Positions 25,390 to 51,872 of a stretch of DNA of 64,000 bases are shown one piece after another. This DNA is from Paracoccaceae bacterium Fryx2 (GTDB lineage: Bacteria > Pseudomonadota > Alphaproteobacteria > Rhodobacterales > Rhodobacteraceae). A program made the position numbers and the translations under genes. The number at the start of each line of letters is the position of its first letter. The first letter of the stretch is position 1. The stretch spans positions 2,418,001-2,482,000 of the forward strand of contig JAVSGI010000005.1 of NCBI GenBank assembly GCA_032334235.1, written 5' to 3'. The notes below the pieces were generated by a model that did not search any database, was not told the origin of the DNA, and saw only the letters and a list, made by a program, of their open reading frames with translations.

Positions 25390-25420
25390 GCGTGGCGCGG
25401 AACCGCCGCCGCAGAAAGAG

Positions 25421-25448
25421 AAAAGGTCGCCACGATGGGCGACCTTTT
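25421..25448. terminator. Bidirectional intrinsic terminator
   Basis: AAAAGGTCGCC, 6-base loop, GGCGACCTTTT: perfect 11-bp stem with A/T tracts on both sides. In the minus direction it would end the small transcript encoded at 25497-25574 (and read-through from the transporter gene); in the plus direction there is no obvious gene to end. Confidence 0.85.
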
Positions 25449-25496
25449 CCGAGTTGCAAGGAGATGAGCCAGTTAGGACATTGGCCCAATCAACGG

Positions 25497-25574
25497 TCAA
25501 TTTCCAGAGGGCTGCCCCTGGGGAACGCTCCCGCTGACTGTCCCGACGCGTCTCTCCAATATCACTCTAGACAC
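25497..25574 (-). CDS. Candidate 25-residue small protein / small RNA gene
   Basis: A GTG-initiated frame of 25 codons starting VSRVILERRVGT and ending QPSGN. Its leader reads GAAAGGAGGTGATCCAG (25574-25590 on the plus strand), exactly complementary over 17 bases to the usual alphaproteobacterial 16S rRNA 3' end, with 7 bases between GGAGG and GTG. A perfect TTGACA sits at 25633-25638 just after the upstream gene's stop, and an intrinsic terminator follows at 25421-25448, giving a self-contained unit of about 190 bases. I do not recognise the peptide. It may be a real small protein, a regulatory RNA that binds 30S subunits, or both. Confidence 0.5.
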   Translation of the reverse strand: MSRVILERRVGTVSGSVPQGQPSGN

Positions 25575-25609
25575 TGGATCACCTCCTTTCAAATGGTTGC
25601 CGATATGGG

Positions 25610-25638
25610 TAAGTTGGCACAGATTTTGTGTTTGTCAA
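25610..25638 (-). promoter_or_regulatory. Promoter candidate for the small transcript
   Basis: Minus strand TTGACA (plus 25633-25638), 17-base spacer, AACTTA (25610-25615). The -35 box is perfect and the -10 box is weak. It lies right after the stop of the transporter gene and about 20 bases before the extended Shine-Dalgarno sequence. Confidence 0.45.
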
Positions 25639-50652: not shown

Positions 50653-51810
50653 TCAGGCGACCCTGGCCAGTTCGGCGATTTCGGCGTGGAACGCGTAGGC
50701 GATCCACGGCATCAGGGCTTCGACATCGGACGCTTCGACCGTCGAGCCGCACCAGATGCGCAGGCCGGGAGGCGCGTCGCGGTAAGCGCCGACATCCAGG
50801 GCAACGCCCGCCTTTTCCAGCCGCTTGGCCACGGCCTTGGCGAAGGCGGCGCCGTCGGTGATGCGCGGGTCGGTGAACTTCAGGCAGACCGAGGTGGTGG
50901 AGGCGGTGGCGGGATCGACCGCGAGGTTGGCGATCCAGTCGTTGGCAGCCACGAAGGCCGCGACGACCGCGGTATTGGCCTCGGCGCGAGCGACCAGGGC
51001 GGGCAGCCCGCCGATGGCCTTCGCCCAGTCGAGCGCCACGAGGTAGTCTTCCACCGCCAGCATCGACGGCGTGTTGATGGTCTCGCCTTCAAAGATGCCT
51101 TCGATCAGTTTGCCCTTCGCGGTCAGCCGGAAAATCTTGGGCAGCGGCCAGGCGGGGGTGTAGCTTTCCAGCCGTTCCACCGCGCGGGGGCCAAGGATCA
51201 GCATGCCGTGCGCGCCCTCGCCACCCAGCACCTTCTGCCAGGAGAAGGTGACGACATCGAGCTTGTCCCACGGCAGGTCCATCGCAAAGGCGGCCGAGGT
51301 CGCGTCGCAGATGGTCAGGCCGGCGCGGTTGGCCGGAATGGCATCGCCATTGGCCAGACGCACGCCCGAGGTGGTGCCGTTCCAGGTGAAGACCACGTCC
51401 TTGTCGAAATCGACCTCTGCCAGATCGACGACCTCGCCATAGGCGGCCTTGCGCACCGTGGCGTCGAGTTTGAGCTGCTTCACCGCGTCGGTGACCCAGC
51501 CTTCGCCAAAGCTCTCCCAGGCCAGCATTTCCACCGGGCGTTGCCCCAGCAGCGACCACATCGCCATTTCGACCGCGCCGGTGTCGGACCCCGGCACGAT
51601 GCCGATGCGATAGCCTGCGGGCACGCCGAGAATCTCGCGCGTCAGGTCGATGGCGCGTTTCAGCTTGGCCTTGCCGACCGAGGCGCGGTGCGACCGGCCG
51701 AGCGGCGCGTCCGACAGCATGTCCAGCGAATATTGGGGGATCTTGGCGCAGGGGCCAGAGGAAAAGCGCGGATTTGCCGGGCGCGTGGCCGGTGCTTGCA
51801 GATCAGACAT
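50653..51810 (-). CDS. serC: Phosphoserine aminotransferase
   Basis: PLP enzyme converting 3-phosphohydroxypyruvate to phosphoserine, also used in pyridoxal synthesis. 385 residues, the alphaproteobacterial form. Schiff-base lysine in [15 protein letters not shown]-terminal [11 protein letters not shown] and [35 protein letters not shown] is the cofactor-binding aspartate region. ATG 51810, preceded by GGAAGG at 5 bases. Promoter region divergent with serB. Confidence 0.96.
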
Positions 51811-51813
51811 GGT

Positions 51814-51872
51814 ATCCTTCCAGATAAATGCCCCCCGGTGGGGAGGGGTGTCCCACCGATGGGTCTAAGCGC
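51814..51872 (-). ncRNA. Putative serC leader RNA
   Basis: The minus-strand 5' region of serC has two adjacent hairpins, CCCATCGGTGGG and CCCC(8)GGGG, immediately before ATTTATCTGGAAGGATACC and the start codon. The arrangement agrees with the serC RNA motif described in alphaproteobacteria. No ligand is known for that motif. Match is by eye. Confidence 0.5.

Follow-up and report, generated by a model that had tools for sequence, protein, structure and literature searches.

What is the 17-base perfect complement of the 16S rRNA 3' tail that lies between a yhhQ-type gene and arfB in the genome of Paracoccaceae bacterium Fryx2: the ribosome-binding site of a small gene, part of a regulatory RNA, or a chance match? 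The DNA analysed, here called the window, is a stretch of 64,000 nucleotides (contig JAVSGI010000005.1, positions 2,418,001 to 2,482,000), and all coordinates below count from its first nucleotide.

The locus and its match to the 16S rRNA 3' tail

The features of the locus, all on the minus strand, are as follows.

26268-25645 (-): yhhQ-type gene; the small-RNA locus sits between this gene and arfB
25633-25638 (-): -35 box TTGACA, read from the sequence; TTGAC is also present upstream in most Rhodobacterales relatives
25611-25616 (-): weak candidate -10 element CAACTT at a 16-nt spacing, suggested by the sequence and a similar CANNYT in relatives
25574-25590 (-): extended Shine-Dalgarno (SD) 17-mer GAAAGGAGGTGATCCAG, complement of the complete 16S 3' tail, from the sequence match and predicted duplex energy
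25497-25574 (-): small ORF with GTG start (25574-25572), VSRVILERRVGTVSGSVPQGQPSGN, and stop TGA (25499-25497); the start is kept and the stop fixed in relatives, with frame-specific conservative substitution
25518-25520 (-): codon 19, the ancestral stop position, CAG in the window and TAG, TGA or TAA in 106 of 113 loci
25579-25586 (-): 5' strand of helix P1, GGAGGUGA, which is the SD itself; comparative pairing and fold
25460-25467 (-): 3' strand of P1, UCAUCUCC, second half of a split 16S-tail mimic; comparative pairing and fold
25570-25578 (-): 5' strand of helix P2, UCCAGUGUC, which includes the GUG start codon; comparative pairing and fold
25555-25563 (-): 3' strand of P2, GAUAUUGGA, first half of the split mimic; comparative pairing and fold
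25487-25540 (-): hairpin P3 (CAGUCAGCGG ... CCGUUGAUUG), with its tip at the ancestral stop, from the fold of the window RNA; its sequence varies among relatives
25543-25547 (-): 5' strand of helix P4, GUCGG (codons 10-11); comparative pairing
25468-25472 (-): 3' strand of P4, CUGGC; comparative pairing
about 25419-25450 (-): intrinsic terminator, a 13-bp palindromic stem and U-tract, from sequence and fold; a terminator is present in nearly all relatives read
25306-24884 (-): arfB (ribosome-rescue factor), downstream neighbour of the small RNA

The first-pass annotation of this locus had reported a perfect -35 box, a 17-base complement of the 16S 3' end and a bidirectional terminator. All three were recovered: the box at 25638-25633 (-), the complement with 17 of 17 bases pairing, and the terminator as a palindrome at about 25450-25419 (-). 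Transcription in Fryx2 would start downstream of the box and end at this palindrome.

The complement of GAAAGGAGGTGATCCAG is CUGGAUCACCUCCUUUC, the end of the 16S rRNA in three genomes of the same family (L007-L009), whose 16S genes contain the matching tail GCGGCTGGATCACCTCCTTTCT; a published S. meliloti 16S oligonucleotide carries this same tail (PMC6943124). No 16S rRNA gene was found in the assembly of the window's own genome, and the match therefore refers to the 16S of relatives. By pattern count, the 13-mer AAGGAGGTGATCC occurs a single time in the 5.47 Mb genome and the 9-mer GGAGGTGAT occurs 91 times. A chance match is excluded because the 13-mer is unique and because the element and its downstream sequence are kept in 185 of 197 Rhodobacterales genomes. 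A 16S antisense fragment or pseudogene was likewise ruled out: the homology among relatives spans the whole RNA, and the 16S match ends at the start codon.

The duplex of the 17-mer with a single-stranded 16S tail has a predicted energy of -29.7 kcal/mol, or -32.8 kcal/mol with two further nucleotides, compared to about -10 kcal/mol predicted for AGGAGG or an ordinary SD.

Relation to the RF01867 family and to arfB

A 15-base pattern matched 96 of 198 genomes of the same family. Reading 31 of the loci yielded 28 that are the small RNA or a diverged copy and three that are 16S ends, and a covariance model (A1, R1) was built from 25 of the 28. This is the model that matches the 185 Rhodobacterales genomes, with one copy each among the matches listed; most of the 12 genomes that it missed gave weak matches in a relaxed search. 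One diverged copy, in a Rhodobacteraceae genome (L012), has no adjoining yhhQ or arfB and contains a GGAGCAGCCUC motif resembling other orders. A variant clade of six loci (L325-L328, L330 and L335) has the SD AGAAAGGAGGUGCCAAUG, a 16S complement of only 12 nt and a peptide, MIIGKQEQLVKV..., unrelated to the usual one, which by eye is 18 codons long in five of the six. The pattern scan across the phylum (299 genomes) gave 44 matches among 86 Alphaproteobacteria and none among the other 213 genomes.

It was found that the Rfam family RF01867 (Caulobacter sRNA CC2171) aligns over its full length, 1-159 of 159, with its parts in the same order, to 25598-25424 (-), including an identical conserved 5' block GAAAGGAGGUGAUCCAGUGUCU and the terminator at the end. 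The E value was 6e-5 in a 241-base search and 3.3e-4 genome-wide, and this is the single RF01867 match in the genome. The score, 30.1 bits, is below the gathering cut-off of 75, and at that cut-off no RF01867 match was listed in the scan of the window. Judged by this alignment, the window element is a divergent relative of RF01867 that falls under Rfam's cut-off. A match to STnc320 was rejected because it covers the terminator hairpin alone. A separate Rfam match in the window, at 51807-51858 (-) with 66.2 bits, is to the serC leader RF00517, which is already known from Alphaproteobacteria.

The RF01867 model itself has matches in 66 of the 289 genomes searched from the class; of the named controls, Caulobacter vibrioides alone was matched. 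Six alphaproteobacterial genomes (G207, G228, G330, G403, G423 and G429) have two or three RF01867-like matches each, which suggests paralogous copies. The relatives found with RF01867 resemble the window RNA in having an ORF at the same position and a 16S-tail mimic, although Rfam classes the family as a non-coding sRNA. The Rhodobacterales branch differs from RF01867 in its score of 30 bits, under the cut-off of 75, and in its split mimic, three-helix closure and 18-codon ORF. RF01867 is among the intergenic sRNA candidates of Mesorhizobium huakuii (PMC5596092). In the open literature we found no function for CC2171/RF01867 and no description of the coding evidence, the 16S-tail mimic, the Rhodobacterales branch or the stand-alone nature of the RNA, and so what appears to be known already is the RNA family by name. 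Comparison of genomes thus reveals a near-universal Rhodobacterales RNA that is itself under the Rfam cut-off and has relatives filed as non-coding.

The surroundings of the RNA might suggest that it is a transcription attenuator or leader of arfB. In 93 of 107 Rhodobacterales loci the RNA is followed by arfB in the same orientation, in a few of them only 11-22 nt past the T-tract; a terminator stands between the two, and it is appealing to connect translation with ribosome rescue. However, the distance to arfB varies from 11 to 513 nt, and arfB was found in the flanks of none of the 30 RF01867 loci fetched from other orders, where the RNA has unrelated neighbours that are frequently convergent, although ORFs in such GC-rich loci could be called only roughly. 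An attenuator or leader would be read through into a conserved downstream gene, whereas no downstream gene is common across the orders. Furthermore, 22 of 68 loci have TANNNT at its peak position of -13/-12 relative to the arfB start, compared to 4.9 +/- 2.1 in shuffles, and an SD precedes arfB in only 10 of the 68; this peak and the scarcity of SDs make it probable that arfB is leaderless and transcribed from a promoter of its own. The window's arfB is probably no different, having a -10-like element, TAGGTT, that ends 6 nt before the ATG. We consider the attenuator explanation very unlikely; the comparison of loci argues for a separate transcript, independent of its neighbours, with read-through into arfB that may occur in the minority of loci where the gap is 11-22 nt.

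Pairing of the ribosome-binding site with a mimic of the 16S tail

Helix P1 of the Rhodobacterales RNAs joins the SD GGAGGUGA to a distal strand, UCAUCUCC or C(A/G)CCUCC, and helix P2 joins the start-codon segment UCCAGUGUC to GAUAUUGGA. Over 100 sequences, 97.0% of cells were paired, with seven pairs changed on both sides, whereas slid control versions of the helices were 33-53% paired. P1 was paired in 99.7% of cells; its SD side is invariant, as expected because the SD must also fit the 16S rRNA, and its opposite side alternates between C and U and between A and G with the pair maintained. P4 was paired in 98.5% of cells, and three of its pairs had changes on both sides. Fold energies, which are those of the RNA alone and ignore proteins and co-transcriptional kinetics, gave z = -4.55 for the window RNA and a closed full-length RNA in 101 of 105 Rhodobacterales. 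The ribosome-binding site of the window RNA is thus predicted to be base-paired in cis and not exposed.

The 3' strands of P2 and P1 (AUUGGA ... UCAUCUCC) resemble the 16S tail CUGGAUCACCUCC interrupted by an insertion, and we infer that these split strands are homologous to one 16S-tail mimic. Outside Rhodobacterales, the mimic is contiguous, for example CCUGGAUCCUCGCCUC pairing with GAGGUGAUCCAG, and it co-varies with the nucleotides before and at the start codon (UCCAG/CUGGA, UCCCG/CGGGA, UCCUG/CAGGA and UCCAA/UUGGA). When spacers were permuted among 36 dissimilar RNAs, none of 5000 permutations reached the pairing observed between the mimic and the SD-to-start region with its own spacer, and the reversed-sequence control gave 0.35. 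When 5' fragments were cut at the mimic, the SD was predicted to be closed in 33 of the 36, compared to 15-23 in shuffles; fragments that end at the best partner inflate pairing by construction, hence the shuffled controls and the covariation test. Of the full-length RNAs from these orders, 18 of 36 were predicted to switch to an open SD, compared to 3-9 in shuffles, the mimic being captured by sequence further 3', and so closure outside Rhodobacterales is perhaps only transient. A general and permanent closure of the SD across all orders was therefore not supported, many full-length folds having an open SD. Nine loci (L101, L111, L246-L248, L054, L055, L058 and L061) have a recurrent motif, (T/C)(T/C)GGAGCARCCTYY, near the end of the ORF, which is apparently another form of the 16S-tail mimic.

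The mimic (UCAUCUCC, CGCCUCC) also complements SDs of the ordinary kind and stays paired with the SD of its own RNA until it is displaced, so the RNA might act in trans, with binding of a 30S subunit freeing the mimic to mask the SDs of other mRNAs. Anti-SD-like segments are indeed known in the alphaproteobacterial sRNAs SmelA075 and CcsR (PMC3927594). In these sRNAs, however, the anti-SD is exposed in hairpin loops as CCUCCUCCC, whereas that of the window RNA is paired with its own SD; the CCUCCUCCC motif in exposed hairpin loops is absent from the window RNA, as is the repetition of such loops. Moreover, the mimic outside Rhodobacterales lies mostly within the translated ORF, and ribosomes would therefore cover it. 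This makes a trans-acting anti-SD sRNA quite improbable in our estimation, and a mimic that closes the ribosome-binding site of its own RNA is the reading that we carry forward.

The small ORF and a proposed ribosome-gated RNA

The ORF had been described as a GTG followed by 25 sense codons. That is the length in the window, but it is atypical: the frame is exactly 18 codons long in 101 of 107 distinct Rhodobacterales loci and in 78 of 80 named relatives, and the window ORF is longer because the window species lost the ancestral stop at codon 19. Across 113 loci, this codon is TAG in 50, TGA in 34 and TAA in 22, with seven exceptions that include the CAG of the window. TGG was never seen there, although a purely structural T-purine-purine constraint would permit it. 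The score for conservative substitution over codons 2-12 was +1.70 in frame and about zero in the other two frames; codon 8 keeps R or K through AGA, CGA, AAA and AAG, and codon 2 uses three synonymous Ser codons.

Of the 36 mutually dissimilar RNAs that lie outside the Rhodobacterales set, 34 reach their first in-frame stop within codons 13-33; the other two frames do so in 13 and 9 RNAs, and shuffles in 11.7 +/- 2.6. The peptides themselves differ by group (MSRVILERGVGT..., MSHCH..., MSSDFVFQ... and VSYTKRCHLAGIAR), so that the conservation of translation and of ORF length reaches further across the groups than that of the peptide. On this comparative evidence, the small ORF is under coding selection, as the ORF of a dual-function sRNA would be, with a fixed stop and a frame-specific score, and we regard the RNA as a candidate dual-function RNA. 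The first-pass annotation had counted a lack of conservation in close relatives, for the 17-mer and for the frame alike, among the grounds that would refute it, and since both are conserved, the finding stands.

Our preferred reading, to which we assign a probability of about 0.55, is that the locus encodes a stand-alone, self-closing small mRNA of about 185 nt, belonging to a CC2171-like group, with a ribosome-binding site that is shut by a 16S-tail mimic and opened by the 30S subunit. In the closed state, the internal mimic, split between P2 and P1 in Rhodobacterales and contiguous elsewhere, would pair with the RNA's own ribosome-binding site. A 30S subunit with a free tail would win the competition with the mimic by offering 17 bp in place of the cis helix; the predicted energies given above for the 17-mer:16S duplex exceed the -21.0 kcal/mol of an isolated P1-type helix, and the tail should therefore be able to displace the mimic. 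Initiation at the GTG, translation of the short ORF (18 codons in relatives) and termination would follow, after which the RNA would reclose. Translation output and RNA conformation would in this way reflect, or be controlled by, the 30S subunits that are competent for initiation. The comparative evidence points to an RNA that is translated and organised around complete 16S-tail complementarity, with its own mimic of that tail, and the scheme offers a concrete, testable model by which a cell could gauge the supply or the condition of its ribosomes. With much more reserve, we suggest as a tentative generalisation that Alphaproteobacteria carry an RNA switch with the ribosome as its ligand, which senses free or tail-accessible 30S subunits and might signal through the peptide or the freed anti-SD.

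The conservation of residues 2-12, specific to the frame and including the codon 8 and codon 2 patterns, could also be explained by a plain small mRNA whose very strong ribosome-binding site serves to express a functional short peptide (MSRxxLE(R/K)GVGT...), the structure being incidental or no more than a means of tuning expression. However, residues 13-18 are not conserved, and the peptides are unrelated between orders and in the MIIGKQEQLVKV... variant, while the SD, start, stop and closing helices persist. In addition, efficiency in E. coli drops when the SD exceeds 6 nt (PMC2176067), and in Flavobacterium a very strong SD serves autoregulation by a special ribosome population (PMC9976891). 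Because long SDs are unfavourable in E. coli and because of the Flavobacterium precedent, we prefer a ribosome-gated switch and consider the plain small mRNA unlikely. The initial proposal of either a translation-regulating RNA, which may hold 30S subunits, or a strongly translated small protein can be adjusted accordingly: each half has support, since the frame is selected and the RNA is built on 16S pairing, but conserved helices sequester the SD and the start codon, which makes strong translation doubtful. Ribosome profiling in Caulobacter found most ncRNAs to be untranslated and two earlier ncRNAs to be translated, which the main text does not name (PMC4117421). The findings on this RNA should change how sRNA and ribosome-profiling datasets already available for Caulobacter, rhizobia and Rhodobacter are interpreted.

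The closest parallel in the way of working is the extended SD of Flavobacteriales rpsU, in which an exceptional SD:16S pairing answers the state of the ribosome, the gene being autoregulated by ribosomes lacking bS21 (PMC9976891). Unlike the window RNA, with its short peptide and internal 16S mimic, rpsU encodes a ribosomal protein, and the ribosomes of its hosts hide the 16S tail (PMC9976891). The extended SDs near start codons in Staphylococcus aureus likewise involve extended pairing close to the start codon, but they are common to many genes, whereas the window RNA is found once per genome and contains a cis competitor (PMC13009471). In overall form, the window RNA resembles Pos19 of Rhodobacter sphaeroides, a stand-alone coding sRNA of about 220 nt from the same bacterial family, containing a small ORF and ending in a Rho-independent terminator (PMC5036791). 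Pos19 differs in its 50-codon ORF, its control by RpoE and its weak and dispensable SD, and its description includes no 16S-tail complement or mimic (PMC5036791).
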